DNA of 38,118 bases from Candidatus Gastranaerophilales bacterium. Its GTDB lineage: Bacteria; Cyanobacteriota; Vampirovibrionia; Gastranaerophilales; Gastranaerophilaceae. Shown here piece after piece: positions 2,189 to 14,626 of this stretch (within the stretch, counting starts at the first letter, position 1; each line of letters starts with the position of its first letter). The stretch lies in the NCBI GenBank assembly GCA_947589705.1, contig CANQCO010000006.1:1-38118 (forward strand), given 5' to 3'. Below the pieces are notes generated by a model, which ran no database searches, was not told the DNA's origin, and was given only the letters and a program-made list of their open reading frames with translations. Made by a program: the position numbers and the translations under genes.

Positions 2189-2288
2189 CAAAATTTTTTA
2201 AATATTTTATATTTAATATCCTGTTAAAATCAAATAATATCAAGTAATATTTATCAATTTTGTATTAAAAACAATACTTTATTAATGC

Positions 2289-2294
2289 TATAAT
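2289..2294 (+). promoter_or_regulatory. -10 element TATAAT immediately before the Abi gene
   Basis: A consensus TATAAT lies 6 bases before the ATG at 2301, and no ribosome binding site is visible. Transcription from it would begin at or about the start codon, suggesting a leaderless or nearly leaderless message. The -35 region is not clear. Confidence 0.4.
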
Positions 2295-2300
2295 AAAGTT

Positions 2301-2981
2301 ATGAAATCTATAAATAAAAATACGCAAAATATTATTGAAAATATTAGTGTTGACAGGTTATCATCATACAAATTTGATGATAATGACAATATTGAGTTAA
2401 TTTTAAGCAGATATATTTATAATGTTCAAATTTCAGAAAGTTTTTATCCTGTTTTATCTGCATTGGAAATTTCTTTAAGAAACAGATTATATAATGCAGT
2501 ATCAAAATTAAAGGGTGATAATTGGCTATTAAATGAAATTAATCAACAAAATATTTTATCAATGAATGAAAGAAATATACTTGTAGAATCCTTTAACAAG
2601 TTAAACTGCAAACATAATAGTGTTTCTACAGGTGCTTTAATAGCCGAATTAACATTCGGATTTTGGGTAAATTTGTGTAAAAAGTCATATAAAAACAGTT
2701 TATGGGATAAGCAAGGTTTTTTTGATAGTGTATTTCCTGATTTTGATAAATATTTTACAAGTCCGACTTGGGATAAAACAAAGGTTATATTCCCATTATT
2801 GAAAGACGTTTTAAGACTTAGAAACAGGATATTTCACCACGAAATAATTATCAATAACAAAAACGGTATAGAAAATTGTTATGAAATAACCAAAAAAGTT
2901 TTATATTCTCTATCAGAAGATTATGCACAAATGTTTGAGGATATTTTCAGATTTGATAACATAGTAAAGCAAAAGCCCTAG
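2301..2981 (+). CDS. Abi-family HEPN protein (AbiD/AbiF-like, PF07751-type)
   Basis: A 226-residue soluble protein with the features of abortive-infection Abi proteins. These include an N-terminal motif SALEISLRNRLYNAV near residues 52-66, the family signature TFGFWVNL near 115-122, and the C-terminal HEPN ribonuclease motif RNRIFHHE near 174-181 (R-x4-H with the preceding RLRN). In this family HEPN motifs cleave RNA and cause dormancy or death of infected cells. The gene is the first in the element, adjacent to the left attachment site, a usual position for defence cargo. A structured hairpin begins within its stop codon (2977-3011) and may be a partner RNA. There is no ribosome binding site; a TATAAT lies directly upstream. 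The family call is good; choosing AbiF over AbiD is not possible by eye. Confidence 0.8.
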   Translation: MKSINKNTQNIIENISVDRLSSYKFDDNDNIELILSRYIYNVQISESFYPVLSALEISLRNRLYNAVSKLKGDNWLLNEINQQNILSMNERNILVESFNKLNCKHNSVSTGALIAELTFGFWVNLCKKSYKNSLWDKQGFFDSVFPDFDKYFTSPTWDKTKVIFPLLKDVLRLRNRIFHHEIIINNKNGIENCYEITKKVLYSLSEDYAQMFEDIFRFDNIVKQKP

Positions 2982-3015
2982 CAACTCCACAAAAGTGGTA
3001 CATCAACTAGGACTG
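2976..3015 (+). ncRNA. candidate structured RNA downstream of the Abi gene
   Basis: An outer stem CCTAG (2977-2981, overlapping the stop codon) pairs with CTAGG (3007-3011). An inner stem CCAC (2987-2990) pairs with GTGG (2995-2998) around an AAAA loop. There is no T run after it on the plus strand, so it is not a good terminator. The sequence actaggactg (3006-3015) recurs as its exact reverse complement cagtcctagt at 3293-3302. Abi-family HEPN genes are known to sit beside structured RNAs, and the shape recalls Cas13 repeats. This is a structural suggestion from sequence alone. Confidence 0.45.
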
Positions 3016-3342
3016 TACATATACATTATACACCTTAAATTATCAAACCGCAATAGTTAATAAATATAATAATACAAAGTATTATTTTGATGTATTTTTG
3101 TAATTTTTGTAAGGTTATTGTGTTTTAAGGGTTTTAAAGATTTATGTCGGTGTTAGTTTTGTAATGTTTAATTTTTGTTAATTAATTTATTTATTTAAAA
3201 TTAAATTTAAAATAATTTAAAATCGCATACAATCCGATTTTTTAACCTCCATATACAAAATAACATAAAAAAGATAAAACTATGGTTATTTTCAGTCCTA
3301 GTCGTGTTAGGTGCTATGTTTTAATTATTTCAATATAAAAAA
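3016..3342. other. 327-bp non-coding region between Abi gene and XRE regulator
   Basis: No ORF of note. The region is A+T-rich and ends with cagtcctagt (3293-3302), the reverse complement of part of the Abi-gene hairpin, followed by a weak CCTA/TAGG mini-hairpin near 3297-3311. If the Abi gene has an RNA partner it would be encoded in this interval, on either strand. Confidence 0.4.
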
Positions 3343-3714
3343 TTAAATTTTATCTTTTTTAGAAAAAGTCTTATAACTTTTTTGAGCAAATTTCAGCATT
3401 TCAAGATAGTATTCTTTTTCGTTATTATCACAGGCTGAATTAATAATTTTTGTTGACTGAATAACAAATTCATCAGGTGCATTTATTTTATCTATCGGAG
3501 TATCATTAATTAAAGAATAAAAATCAAAATTAAATAATTCTGATAATTTTCTTGCGACTTTAAAAGAGGGAAGATTTTTACCTGTTTCAATTCTTGATAA
3601 ACATCTGTTATCAATACCGAGTTTTTCAGACAACTTCTCTTGTGTTAAATTGTTTTTAACACGAAGTTCTCTTACTTTATCACCTATGATTTTAGCTTCT
3701 TGTTTTTCTGTCAT
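3343..3714 (-). CDS. XRE-family transcriptional regulator
   Basis: A 123-residue protein with an N-terminal lambda-Cro/C1 helix-turn-helix at about residues 10-65 (VRELRVKNNLTQEKLSEKLG, then CLSRIETGKNLPS). The C-terminal ~55 residues are charged and of no known domain. It is transcribed away from the zinc-ribbon operon that begins at 3871, leaving a 156-bp shared intergenic region. By analogy with other element repressors it probably controls that operon and its own expression; the operator was not identified. The start is placed at the ATG at 3712-3714, which gives the complete domain. Confidence 0.85.
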   Translation of the reverse strand: MTEKQEAKIIGDKVRELRVKNNLTQEKLSEKLGIDNRCLSRIETGKNLPSFKVARKLSELFNFDFYSLINDTPIDKINAPDEFVIQSTKIINSACDNNEKEYYLEMLKFAQKSYKTFSKKDKI

Positions 3715-4275: not shown

Positions 4276-5097
4276 ATGAACTGTCCAAATTGTGGAAAAG
4301 AAATCACAGGCAATAAAAAATTCTGTAAAAATTGTGGTTATGATATATCAACAGTTAGTTTTAGAAAAATGATTTTTATAGCCTCCTTAATAATGCCCTT
4401 AATTTTTACAGCTATTATATGTAGTCCTATATCATATAATATGGCTATTTTAATTACACATATAGCCATATTCATTTTTACGATTATTGATTTTGGTTGC
4501 ATGTTAATTTTTACAAATAAAACAAAGACGAAGAATATACTGTTATTATTCGGTTTAAATTTTGCTGTAAGTCTGATATTGTTAAGCCAATTATTGTGGA
4601 TACACGACGATATTTGCATTATACACAACTATATTCGCTATTATTATGCCTACTATATCCCATTTTATTATAAAATAACTGAATTTTGCATAAGCTTTAT
4701 ATTTTTTATTTTAGGCACAGTTATTGCAATTAAATATTTTAAAGATAAAAATTTTTCTATGATAAAGCAAGAATACAACGGTATTTTGGATAGATTAATT
4801 GGGATTTATTTATTTTGTTCATTTTATGGTTTAATCGTTCCAATATATCTATTATGTTTTCATACAGGTGAAATGCACACAGATGAATTATGGCAGTTGG
4901 GTCTTATGATTCGTTCTAATTTAATTCGGTTCGTTCCACCACTTGCATTCATCGGAACTTGTTTTATATTAAACTATAAAAACAATTTAAGAATAAAAAA
5001 TGGATTGATATATTTGATTTATGGTATTCAGCTATTGTTTATTCTGTATATAGGCTATAATATTTATAATTTACTATCTAAATATTACTTAAGTTAA
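4276..5097 (+). CDS. polytopic membrane protein with N-terminal zinc ribbon
   Basis: 273 residues starting directly with a zinc ribbon (MNCPNCGKEI...CKNCG, residues 1-22). About seven hydrophobic segments then fill the rest of the protein (roughly 30-52, 55-80, 84-105, 135-155, 170-192, 210-230, 243-265). A ribosome binding site (gggggaaa) precedes the ATG. It lies 12 bp after the previous zinc-ribbon gene and is followed within about 10 bp by the next. No transporter or enzyme signature is visible, so the function is unknown. Sharing the same ribbon with its neighbours suggests that the ribbons serve a common interaction or assembly role. Confidence 0.75.
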   Translation: MNCPNCGKEITGNKKFCKNCGYDISTVSFRKMIFIASLIMPLIFTAIICSPISYNMAILITHIAIFIFTIIDFGCMLIFTNKTKTKNILLLFGLNFAVSLILLSQLLWIHDDICIIHNYIRYYYAYYIPFYYKITEFCISFIFFILGTVIAIKYFKDKNFSMIKQEYNGILDRLIGIYLFCSFYGLIVPIYLLCFHTGEMHTDELWQLGLMIRSNLIRFVPPLAFIGTCFILNYKNNLRIKNGLIYLIYGIQLLFILYIGYNIYNLLSKYYLS

Positions 5098-5107
5098 GAT
5101 GTATTTC

Positions 5108-5866
5108 ATGTACTGTCAAAATTGTGGAAAAGAAATAAAAGAAAATCAGAAATTTTGCACTAAGTGTGGTGCATTATTAAAGAGCAACGGCAATCGTACA
5201 AAAAATATTGTTATAATTTCTTGTATTGTATTTTTCATTATTTTTAGCATAATTTGTTGTTTCTTATTCTTTAATAATCAAAATTTAACGAATAATATCA
5301 TAAATCAAAAAAATATAATTCCAAATAAGGTGAATCAGCAAAAAGAAAAAACTCCCGATGATATTTTAGAGGAAATCAAAATTTATCAGTCAAAATATTG
5401 GGAAATAATAAAAAGAAATGATTTACTGTTGAGGGTTACTGACGGAAATGATATTGATTTAAACCACGATTCAGACGAATTTAATAGGTTATATAAAGAA
5501 GTTAAAAGTAAAATTGATAAAAATAATATATATTTCAAAAAATATCAGGAAATTTTAGAACAATACGGCAATAATTCAGGTGAAACAGACGAAGAAATGA
5601 TAAATTTTGAAACTGAAAATTATAACGCCATTGATAAACTGTTAAATGAAGTATATAAAGCTGTTAAATTAAAACTTTCAGCAGAAGATTTTGAAAAGTT
5701 AAAAATTGATGAAAAAAATTGGATTAAAGACGTTAATGCTTATCACAAATATGCAGGACTTGAAGATACAAAATTTGAATATGGAAATTTTGTAAGGGTT
5801 TTAATTTGGTCTTGTGAAGTTGACATGAGAAGCTTTAGAACTTTGCTTTTGATGTTGTATTTATAA
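5108..5866 (+). CDS. membrane-anchored protein: zinc ribbon, one TM, LprI/DUF1311-like external domain
   Basis: Starting at the methionine of MYCQNCGK (5108), which matches the starts of its neighbours, the protein has 252 residues. It begins with a zinc ribbon (residues 1-25, four Cys), followed by a transmembrane segment at about 33-55 and a hydrophilic linker. The C-terminal region, about 155-220, reads like a DUF1311/LprI domain (NEVYKAVKLKLSAEDFEKL, then DEKNWIKD). LprI-type domains include lysozyme inhibitors and act outside the membrane. An ATG at 5099 is also possible but adds only three residues and has no ribosome binding site. Ribbon inside, domain outside is the layout of TcaA-like envelope proteins. 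The LprI call is moderate. Confidence 0.7.
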   Translation: MYCQNCGKEIKENQKFCTKCGALLKSNGNRTKNIVIISCIVFFIIFSIICCFLFFNNQNLTNNIINQKNIIPNKVNQQKEKTPDDILEEIKIYQSKYWEIIKRNDLLLRVTDGNDIDLNHDSDEFNRLYKEVKSKIDKNNIYFKKYQEILEQYGNNSGETDEEMINFETENYNAIDKLLNEVYKAVKLKLSAEDFEKLKIDEKNWIKDVNAYHKYAGLEDTKFEYGNFVRVLIWSCEVDMRSFRTLLLMLYL

Positions 5867-5879
5867 GGGAATGCGAAAT

Positions 5880-6926
5880 ATGTATTGTAAAAAATGCGGA
5901 TGTGAAATAAGTAACAATCAAAAATTCTGTACAAAATGCGGTGAAAAGGTTTATGTTTCAAATGAAAACAAAAGTCTAAAATTAACAATAAATAAAAATA
6001 CTGTAAAATTTGTAATTATAGGAATAGTTTTTATTACAATAACGTCAACTATCGGAACGTTTTATGTTTCAGATTTAAAAATTTCCGAAATTTCAACTTA
6101 TAAATCAATAATAGCAATTAAAGAACAGGATTATGAAGATTATGGCATTGATATAAACCAAGAAGCATTGAAACAAGCTATTGAACAAGATAAAAATATG
6201 GAAGAATTTGTTAAAAAACTTCATTTCGCAAAGGCTGACAATGTTTTTAAAACATTTTATGAAAATTTACAAATATTAGCTTCACAAATAGCACAGGATG
6301 ATACATTTAACTTATCTGAAAAACAAAACGGCAGTCTTAAAATCAATAACCCTGATATTGATATAATCAAATTTAAAAAGGATTATTATAATGCTTTAGT
6401 TAATAGGGAATATATATATAATAAATATTCAAAGTATTTAAGTAAATCATGGAATAAATTTTTAAAATTATCTTACGAATTTGAAAATGATATAAATGAA
6501 ACGCTTGCAAATATTGAAGAAACAAAAATAATTGAGTGGATTGTAAAATGGCAAAAGTTTTTAAACAAATATCCCGAATTTCCAATGCAAAATGATGTTA
6601 AAAACGATATAAAATGGCTTATAAATGATATTTTGTATGGTCATTTTTTAAGTAATGATGAAGAACAAAGTTTTAATGTTGAAAAATTAAAAAATAGTTA
6701 TGATGAATTTTTAAATAAAGTTGATAAATCGAGTAAGGAATATGATTTAGCTGTCAAGTGCTATGAAGAACTTAAAAACAATAATTTCAAAAGAACAGCA
6801 CAATACCATAAATATTTATATGATTATACAGGATTTGGTTCGCATGGTTATGAATATGAGCTTTTAAGCGGAATACTTAATACAGATAAAGGGCATTACG
6901 AAGAATATTTCTCTGGCGATTATTAA
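5880..6926 (+). CDS. membrane-anchored protein: zinc ribbon, one TM, large external domain
   Basis: I prefer the ATG at 5880 (MYCKKCGCEI) because aaggga lies 9 bases upstream and the start then aligns with the other zinc-ribbon proteins; the ATG at 5871 directly abuts that site. The 348-residue product has a zinc ribbon (1-25), a single transmembrane segment (about 40-62) and some 285 hydrophilic, mostly helical residues predicted outside the membrane. No known domain was recognised in the external part, which is rich in Asn, Lys, Glu and Tyr. It overlaps nothing, follows its neighbour by 13 bases, and the next gene starts one base after its stop. Confidence 0.7.
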   Translation: MYCKKCGCEISNNQKFCTKCGEKVYVSNENKSLKLTINKNTVKFVIIGIVFITITSTIGTFYVSDLKISEISTYKSIIAIKEQDYEDYGIDINQEALKQAIEQDKNMEEFVKKLHFAKADNVFKTFYENLQILASQIAQDDTFNLSEKQNGSLKINNPDIDIIKFKKDYYNALVNREYIYNKYSKYLSKSWNKFLKLSYEFENDINETLANIEETKIIEWIVKWQKFLNKYPEFPMQNDVKNDIKWLINDILYGHFLSNDEEQSFNVEKLKNSYDEFLNKVDKSSKEYDLAVKCYEELKNNNFKRTAQYHKYLYDYTGFGSHGYEYELLSGILNTDKGHYEEYFSGDY

Positions 6927-12993: not shown

Positions 12994-13216
12994 TATCGCA
13001 AATAAAACACTTATCACACTAAAACACAATATGTTTAACTTAATTAAACTTGAAGATTTAGCAAAAGAGCTAAAAACAAACATTAATACAATAAAAACTT
13101 GGAGACGTAGGGGCGATATTCCGCCCTATGTATTCCACAAAATCGGTGGAACAGTATATGTAAAAGAAAATGTTTTCAGAGATTGGATATCGGGAGAAAA
13201 TCATGGCAGTATATAA
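12983..13216 (+). CDS. AlpA/excisionase-like helix-turn-helix protein
   Basis: A 77-residue protein with a MerR-type winged helix: IKLEDLAKELKTNINTIKTW (about 20-40), the wing RRRGDIPPYVFHKIGGTVYV, and KENVFRDWI. This is the HTH_17/AlpA layout typical of excisionases and integrase regulators. A ribosome binding site (aaaggagg) lies within the end of the primase gene, and its own end overlaps the integrase start by 14 bases. It is probably translated in a coupled primase-excisionase-integrase unit. It likely directs excision or represses integrase. Confidence 0.8.
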   Translation: MTDNIANKTLITLKHNMFNLIKLEDLAKELKTNINTIKTWRRRGDIPPYVFHKIGGTVYVKENVFRDWISGENHGSI

Positions 13217-14270
13217 GAAAAAGAATAAATGGTATTACCAATTTATGGTAAACGGAGAAAGGAGACACGGGGTTATTCCCGGTGTCTCCGAGAAAAAAGA
13301 AGCTGAAAAAATAGAAAATGCAATAAAAATTAGAGTAGTACAACAGCAAAATGGTCTTATACCAAAGGAAGAAAAGAATGTTACATTATCACAATTAAAA
13401 AATTTATATGAAAATTATTCTAAAACAAATAAAAAAAGCTATAAGCATGATGTATATTCTTTAAATATAATTGTAAATTATTTTGGGACATCTGCTATTG
13501 TTCAGAAAATCACACCAAAGAAAATTGAAGATTTTAAGCAATACCTTAAATCAGAAAGAAATTTAAAAAATTCATCAATCAACAGATATCTTGAAATATT
13601 AAGTAAAATGTTTAATCTTGGTATTGATAATGAAATTATAAGAAATAACCCATTACAAAAAACAGCAAAATTAAGAGAAGATAATCACAAAATTCGTTTT
13701 CTTTCAACGGAAGAAGAAATCCGATTATTTAAAGCAATAGAGTATGAACATGAGGTTTTAGACAGATATACAAGACTTAAAAAAATAGTTAAACCTTATT
13801 TATTTTTAAAACCTATTATTATAACTGCTCTGCAAACAGGTATGCGTAGAGGTGAAATTCTTAATTTAAAATGGAGTAATATTGATTTTACGTACGGATT
13901 TATTGAACTATTAGATACAAAATCTGGTAAGGCTCGTAAAGTACCAATATCAGACACATTAAGAGATGTATTAAACAGTATAGAACACCAATCAGAATAT
14001 GTATTTGTAAATCCAAAAACAAATAAACCATATATAGACCTGAAAAAATCGTTTCATCAAGTTATGAAATTAGCAAATATTAAAAATTTCAGATTTCATG
14101 ATTTAAGACATACCGTAGCAACAAGATTAGTTGAAAATAATATTGATTTAGCCGTTATTCAAGAAATTTTAGGTCATGCTCATATCGAAACTACTATGAG
14201 GTATGCTCACCCTGTACCAAAAAGAAAACTTGAAGCAATAGATGTATTAAATTCTTATTTTAAAAAATAG
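13203..14270 (+). CDS. tyrosine integrase of the element
   Basis: I place the start at the ATG at 13203 (MAVYKKKNKWYYQ), with gggaga upstream, giving 355 residues. An ATG at 13170 lies inside the previous gene and has no site. The N-terminus (KNKWYYQFMVNGERRHG) is a three-stranded arm-DNA-binding domain. A core-binding SAM-like domain covers about 60-160. The catalytic domain carries TGMRRGE (Arg), a Lys in the KSGKARK turn, FHDLRHT (HxxR), LGHAHIETT (His) and MRYAHP (nucleophile Tyr). All catalytic residues are present. It reads toward the tRNA-Met, ending 63 bp from it, the usual layout for a tRNA-targeting integrase. Confidence 0.95.
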   Translation: MAVYKKKNKWYYQFMVNGERRHGVIPGVSEKKEAEKIENAIKIRVVQQQNGLIPKEEKNVTLSQLKNLYENYSKTNKKSYKHDVYSLNIIVNYFGTSAIVQKITPKKIEDFKQYLKSERNLKNSSINRYLEILSKMFNLGIDNEIIRNNPLQKTAKLREDNHKIRFLSTEEEIRLFKAIEYEHEVLDRYTRLKKIVKPYLFLKPIIITALQTGMRRGEILNLKWSNIDFTYGFIELLDTKSGKARKVPISDTLRDVLNSIEHQSEYVFVNPKTNKPYIDLKKSFHQVMKLANIKNFRFHDLRHTVATRLVENNIDLAVIQEILGHAHIETTMRYAHPVPKRKLEAIDVLNSYFKK

Positions 14271-14322: not shown

Positions 14323-14332
14323 CAAAAAAATA

Positions 14333-14406
14333 TAGCTGAGGATGGATTCGAACCGTCGACCTTACGGGTATGAGCCGTACGCTCTCACCAACTGAGCTAC
14401 TCAGCC
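14333..14406 (-). tRNA. tRNA-Met(CAT), elongator type
   Basis: Read on the minus strand it folds as follows: acceptor GGCTGAG/CTCAGCT (first pair G-U), D arm GCTC...GAGC, anticodon stem TACGG/CCGTA around CTCATAC (anticodon CAT), variable AGGTC, T arm GACGG TTCGAAT CCATC, discriminator A. The T stem has one C-A mismatch. The 3' half probably comes from the integrated element and the 5' half from the chromosome, with the junction in the anticodon loop. An Ile2 (lysidine) identity is possible for CAT anticodons but the overall pattern fits elongator Met. CCA is not encoded. Confidence 0.8.
14364..14374. repeat. attachment-site core, right copy
   Basis: Identical to 2065-2075 (acgggtatgag), in the anticodon loop of the complete tRNA-Met; marks the right boundary of the element. 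Confidence 0.75.
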
Positions 14407-14439
14407 ATATTTATATTTTCTATTTTGTTGTCAATTTTC

Positions 14440-14493
14440 AGCCGGACCCTGTGGGTATGAGCCGTACGCTCTGACCAACTGAGCTACCCAGCC
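14440..14493 (-). pseudogene. truncated second tRNA-Met(CAT) gene
   Basis: On the minus strand the 5' half is tRNA-like: GGCTGGG acceptor, TA, D arm GCTC...GAGC, TACGG stem and CTCATAC loop. After the loop it reads CCACAGGGTCCGGCTG and stops resembling a tRNA: the anticodon stem has two mismatches and the T arm is missing. It lies 33 bp from the complete tRNA-Met. Its acceptor strand is the proper partner of the orphan 3' half at 2034-2075. It may be the broken original host tRNA or the scar of an earlier insertion. Confidence 0.65.
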
Positions 14494-14626
14494 TTAAGTT
14501 AAAACTATCATTACATGCTCAAAAAAAAATTACAATACTTTCTTTTGGTTTAATAATGAAAATAGTCTTGTAAGAAGTGCAGCAGACTAATGCCTTTTTT
14601 GTCAATTTGACAGATAAATTTGAATT

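Follow-up and report, generated by a model that had tools for sequence, protein, structure and literature searches.

The gene abi, in a 38,118-nt stretch of a Candidatus Gastranaerophilales contig (the window), is accompanied on the opposite strand by a small, structurally conserved RNA, and we consider it likely that the two form a type III-like toxin–antitoxin (abortive infection) module—one in which a HEPN ribonuclease would be bound and inhibited by a minus-strand RNA of about 50 nt, as judged by analogy with characterized relatives. The best reading is that the module is like AbiF/AbiFr, yet with another RNA fold and a convergent gene order. A sequence-only reading of the same DNA had proposed an adjacent structured partner RNA: a conserved, structured RNA does lie next to abi and is its probable partner, whereas the strand, size, and ends assigned to that RNA were wrong.

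The abi product belongs to the AbiF branch of HEPN proteins

The product of abi is an AbiF-branch HEPN protein of the Abi_2 family, similar to PD-T4-5. Its match to Pfam Abi_2 (PF07751) lies just above the curated cut-off (27.0 bits versus 25.6), and the PADLOC model for PD-T4-5, which recognizes it at 1.2e-13, was the top model for all 16 homologues considered (the window abi and 15 others). Residues 174–179, RNRIFH, form the HEPN R-phi-x-x-x-H motif, with R174, N175, and H179 invariant in the alignment of the 16 homologues. We also predicted the structure with AlphaFold2 (pLDDT 92.7) and compared it to the PDB with Foldseek, finding as top match chain 8vz6_A, “PbAbiF dimer bound to ncRNA” (probability 1.00, E 0.016). 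Structural alignment to this chain gave Z 12.7 across 202 residues, with the next chain at Z 5.3; because helical proteins can reach a Z of about 12.7 by chance, the match to PbAbiF is supported by the gap to the next chain and by the coverage, not by Z itself. Together, the Abi_2 match, the HEPN motif, and the structural match to PbAbiF bear out the earlier identification of an Abi-family HEPN gene akin to the ancestor of Cas13, and by analogy with this family the protein is predicted to be a ribonuclease toxin. With the single abi protein as query, phage and first viral searches returned distant relatives only or none; with an alignment as query, the viral search retrieved relatives of abi.

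A conserved structured RNA on the minus strand

Several elements noted at the end of abi in the sequence-only reading are present as described: a plus-strand hairpin with outer arms CCTAG (2977–2981) and CTAGG (3007–3011) and an inner CCAC-AAAA-GTGG (2987–2998), which direct inspection confirms is not followed by a T run. The abi stop codon, TAG (2979–2981), falls within the 5′ arm, and in isolation the 61-nt plus-strand hairpin is not unusually stable (z −1.4). The covariance model (R1) that we built from an alignment of 14 homologous loci in related genomes describes an RNA on the minus strand, with an outer stem, an asymmetric internal loop containing conserved bases, an inner hairpin, and a U-rich tail that is itself part of the conserved model (Table 1). 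On the window, which was among the training sequences, R1 aligned to 3018–2963 of the minus strand at 62.7 bits (E 6e-12).

Table 1. Features of the abi–RNA module and of the distant 10-mer, in window coordinates
Feature	Position	Strand	Basis
Extended −10 TGCTATAAT, separated from the abi ATG by 6 nt	2286..2294	+	Promoter scan; spacing shared by most homologous loci
abi gene, 226 aa, AbiF/PD-T4-5-branch HEPN protein	2301..2981	+	Pfam, PADLOC, motif, AF2 model
Small structured RNA, ~50 nt	~3018 (predicted start) to U-rich end at ~2970–2963	−	R1 match, covariation, G-U/A-C count
RNA outer stem, 8 bp, arms AGUCCUAG/CUAGGGCU	3014–3007/2981–2974	−	
RNA inner hairpin	2998–2987	−	
Intrinsic terminator: U-rich tail CUUUUGCUUU that follows the outer stem and overlaps the final abi codons	2963..2973	−	Direct sequence
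Sigma70 promoter TTGCGG-17-TATAAT for the RNA, with 6 nt between its −10 and the start of the RNA model	3025..3053	−	
Reverse-complement 10-mer, outside the module	3293..3302	+	Absent in 23 related loci; conservation ends at 3033; no significant R1 match

Covariation in this RNA is pronounced. Across 45 distinct sequences, the outer helix was paired in 358 of 358 cells and seven of its eight pairs were doubly substituted; its covariation score, from an alignment that was fitted to R1, was 0.578, versus 0.271 ± 0.015 after shuffling and at most 0.139 in slid controls. The MAFFT training alignment agrees (0.495 versus 0.237 shuffled). Wobbles in the outer helix, read on the minus strand, comprise 17 G-U cells and 0 A-C cells, identifying the minus strand as the RNA strand. 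In the internal loop, an unpaired C on the 5′ side and AG on the 3′ side are invariant among the 45 sequences, and several copies carry C(UUCG)G tetraloops. Computation thus establishes the structure of the RNA and its strand, as it does the family and fold of the protein, described above, and the promoter, terminator tail, and linkage to abi that are described below and in Table 1.

Promoters and extent of the module

Nearly all loci with the RNA share a promoter of the form TTGACA or TTGAAA, 17 nt, and a TATAAT-like −10 that ends 6–7 nt before the RNA. Scores of at least 9/12 were attained at the RNA start in 42 of 44 loci, compared to 5% of control positions; no abi-linked copy has a weaker −35 than that of the window (TTGCGG). 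From these sequence signals, the RNA is predicted to be transcribed in the cell. For abi itself, no Shine-Dalgarno-like motif was found ahead of the gene in any homologous locus but one and, given the extended −10 placed 6 nt before the ATG, we predict that its mRNA is leaderless. A strong RNA promoter combined with a leaderless toxin mRNA would be in keeping with a surplus of antitoxin.

Compared with its nearest relatives, the module is similar in DNA sequence from the abi promoter as far as 3033, only a few bases from the −10 of the RNA, and no further. Three loci (L072–L074) help to delimit the RNA—there, a block of 68–71 nt is 91–93% identical and the gene 77% identical, with unrelated spacer DNA between them, so that the RNA block is a discrete unit. 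On both grounds, we place the module at approximately 2265–3053, with the 300-nt interval outside it.

Linkage to abi and copies without it

We examined linkage with an out-of-sample run of R1 on 99 homologous loci that had been collected from GTDB genomes and IMG/VR using only the protein. R1 matched 40 of these at E < 1e-4, always on the minus strand and directly downstream of abi; the 40 include some training loci under other names, and many are not training loci. In all, about 40 loci carry abi with the RNA, in Gastranaerophilales and viral contigs; four IMG/VR viral contigs (L150–L153) have the two together. Searches that started from the RNA instead, among 147 relatives and among 386 genomes of the phylum, also yielded matches mostly at abi, all within one family in the phylum search and some within a second family of the order in the search of relatives. 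R1 did not reach distant homologues, for which the best match was on a Vampirovibrio plasmid, upstream of the gene (E 0.03–0.13). Five homologues from Bacteriovoracaceae have a comparable minus-strand unit in the same place, consisting of promoter-like sequence, a GGCC/GCC stem, and a U-run; since R1 does not detect it, we regard this as an analogous arrangement rather than proven homology.

Eight good R1 matches lacked abi in the flanking DNA retrieved, which extended at most 1.5 kb in each direction (L055, L059, L061, L062, L068, L188, L190, and L195), indicating that linkage of the RNA to the toxin is not absolute. These solo copies mostly retain promoter and fold. One adjoins tail and baseplate genes (L061), another an integrase and an antirepressor-like gene (L190), and a third a phage-type transposase (L195). 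Phages can carry RNA mimics of the ToxIN antitoxin, known as pseudo-ToxI (PMC3475682), and by analogy the solo RNAs are possibly either antitoxins kept after loss of the toxin or a phage-borne counter-defence of the same kind. A further-reaching proposal, which we put forward tentatively and think rather doubtful, is that these RNAs make up a separate class of AbiF antitoxin, with the terminator serving as the antitoxin fold and a convergent gene order, that the class recurs in a second phylum (Bacteriovoracaceae), and that solo copies in prophage-like regions act as counter-defence decoys switching off resident AbiF toxins.

Relation to known RNAs and toxin–antitoxin systems

The earlier reading had proposed searching Rfam for a known Abi-associated RNA, and here the result went against it. 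The Rfam abiF model (RF03085) matched neither the window (searched to E 10) nor 20 relatives (searched to E 5), and Rfam scans of the same sequences recovered neither abiF nor any other relevant RNA; identity with the known abiF RNA was rejected on this basis. In related genomes, the RF03085 model does detect genuine copies next to other abi genes, and it matched in 3 of 41 genomes of distant homologues, counted per genome regardless of the position of abi. The RNA is probably previously uncatalogued, though it may have been described earlier in the literature.

As in type III systems, a small structured RNA with its own promoter lies by a predicted RNase toxin; such systems usually place the RNA ahead of the toxin in a shared operon, on one strand and with an intervening terminator, and this order is not seen here, the RNA being convergent and downstream. 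The closest structural counterpart, PbAbiF/AbiFr (8vz6), is a ribonucleoprotein and type III toxin–antitoxin regarded as the ancestor of Cas13 (PMC12737573). The window module shares with it the AbiF HEPN fold, the HEPN motif, and a small neighboring hairpin RNA whose loop is asymmetric; it differs in that the proteins are only 16% identical in the structural alignment and in that its RNA, encoded convergently downstream, lacks a match to Rfam abiF. AbiF_Cd/RCd22 of Clostridioides difficile prophages likewise pairs an Abi_2 toxin with a stem-loop antitoxin RNA on mobile elements, and RCd22, which neutralizes AbiF_Cd by direct binding that requires its stems, has a sigma-A promoter and terminator of its own, as the window RNA has its own promoter and terminator (PMC12373285). 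In characterized AbiF systems, however, RNA and toxin gene share a strand, with the RNA upstream, and RCd22 is co-transcribed with its toxin by read-through, whereas the window RNA lies downstream on the opposite strand; RCd22 also contains two RF03085 motifs before a separate terminator, while the window RNA has a single motif whose fold is the terminator stem (PMC12373285). Unlike that of AbiF_Cd, the window toxin mRNA is predicted to be leaderless. PD-T4-5, the PADLOC model shared by all homologues, is a plasmid-borne E. coli defence gene, a distant relative of AbiF/D that acts by abortive infection; the available text describes it as a gene and mentions no RNA partner, in contrast to the adjacent RNA of abi (PMC9519451). 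The proposed arrangement also resembles ToxIN, where an RNA antitoxin restrains an endoribonuclease. The two differ in that ToxN lies outside the HEPN proteins and that its antitoxin, ToxI, folds as a tandem-repeat pseudoknot and is encoded upstream of toxN on the same strand.

By analogy with RCd22/AbiF_Cd (PMC12373285) and with PbAbiF/AbiFr (PMC12737573), the RNA most likely binds and blocks the HEPN dimer. In such a scheme, an AbiF/PD-T4-5-branch HEPN ribonuclease would be produced from the leaderless mRNA, and a free-standing RNA of about 50 nt, made convergently from its own sigma70 promoter and terminated intrinsically at a stem that is also its conserved fold, would bind the dimer in trans through the asymmetric internal loop with its invariant C and AG. 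The RNA-bound dimer would be kept inactive; phage infection or loss of the module would cause RNA levels to fall, freeing the RNase and leading to growth arrest. Binding, neutralization, and the phage trigger are all modeled here on the characterized systems.

Alternative explanations

Two other accounts of the minus-strand RNA, antisense control and plain termination, explain less of the evidence than a toxin–antitoxin module does. As a cis antisense regulator of abi mRNA, similar to type I systems, the RNA would act by base-pairing or by transcriptional collision at the 3′ end, and its convergent orientation and the overlap of its tail with the last abi codons (about 18–22 nt in most loci) are in keeping with this. 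That overlap is lost in L072, L073, and L074, where gaps of 35–71 nt separate an RNA that is still conserved from the gene, and pairing with the abi 5′ region gave no consistent signal against mononucleotide shuffles. The invariant unpaired C, A, and G fit recognition by a protein, solo copies exist in which abi is missing, and characterized AbiF RNAs act through protein binding (PMC12373285). We consider antisense control improbable.

Still less probable is that the hairpin merely terminates transcription between convergent genes and has no function as an RNA, as its position at the stop codon and the U-rich tail on the minus strand might suggest. In 42 of 44 loci, a near-perfect sigma70 promoter fires straight into the hairpin from a constant distance, and the unit thus holds nothing but the hairpin. 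The asymmetric internal loop with its invariant bases, the higher conservation of the RNA than of the neighboring gene, and the retention of promoter and fold in most solo copies likewise speak for an antitoxin RNA over a plain terminator.

The sequence-only reading had itself favored a plus-strand partner RNA of about 300 nt (2976–3302), closed by complementary ends. It noted correctly that ACTAGGACTG at 3006–3015 recurs as an exact reverse complement at 3293–3302; an exact, GC-rich 10-mer complement of this kind arises in only about 0.2–0.3% of dinucleotide shuffles (any 10-mer inverted repeat, in 53%), and a 361-nt plus-strand fold is fairly stable (z −2.7). The distant copy is private to the window, as 23 related loci have no equivalent and exact matches there reach 7–9 nt at most, and when covariation was assessed the hairpin stem passed strongly while the long-range closing pair showed no conservation. 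With homologous DNA ending at 3033 in the nearest relatives, and with wobble pattern, promoter, and terminator tail all indicating a minus-strand RNA of about 50 nt, we give the 300-nt RNA almost no credence. A separate possibility, that 3293–3302 is what remains of another copy of the RNA, was rejected, as R1 gave no significant match over 3019–3420. The plus-strand sequence at 3285–3316, CAGTCCTAGTCGTGTTAGGTGCT, looks like a collapsed RNA unit (5′ arm, short loop, and 3′ arm); its R1 score is not significant.

Genomic surroundings

The minus strand at 2025–2075 carries 51 nt copied from the 3′ end of a tRNA-Met, with 80% identity, and an intact tRNA-Met gene (14332–14407) with an intact tyrosine integrase beside it (13170–14270) lies further along; from these features, abi and its RNA are probably located at the distal end of a 12-kb island at tRNA-Met. 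A degraded second integrase (1242–1790), interrupted by a stop and a frameshift and about 73% identical at the DNA level to the intact one, appears from its sequence to mark an older neighboring island with a like site type. A second tRNA-Met-like stretch (14445–14496), not called by ARAGORN, is 88% identical to the tRNA gene at 14358–14409. Upstream of the RNA promoter lies a minus-strand gene for a Cro/C1-type HTH protein (3343–3714); HTH genes also adjoin the solo RNAs of L059 and L068, possibly by coincidence. The products of three consecutive genes at 4276–6926 all begin with similar zinc ribbons, and one has an LprI-like C-terminus; the genes are apparently a tandem family.

Implications

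AbiF and its RNA have been proposed as the starting point of Cas13. Our results indicate that partners of the AbiF branch include at least one RNA family that covariance models do not relate to the described abiF motif and that is encoded in reverse orientation, providing a second test case for what an AbiF protein needs from its RNA. The system is minimal—about 0.75 kb, with one gene and one RNA of about 50 nt—and the gut lineage that carries it is widespread and uncultured. With solo RNAs lying next to phage genes, RNA-based counter-defence becomes testable, and the probable check that the RNA places on the toxin resembles the partnership of guide RNAs with the related Cas13 proteins.
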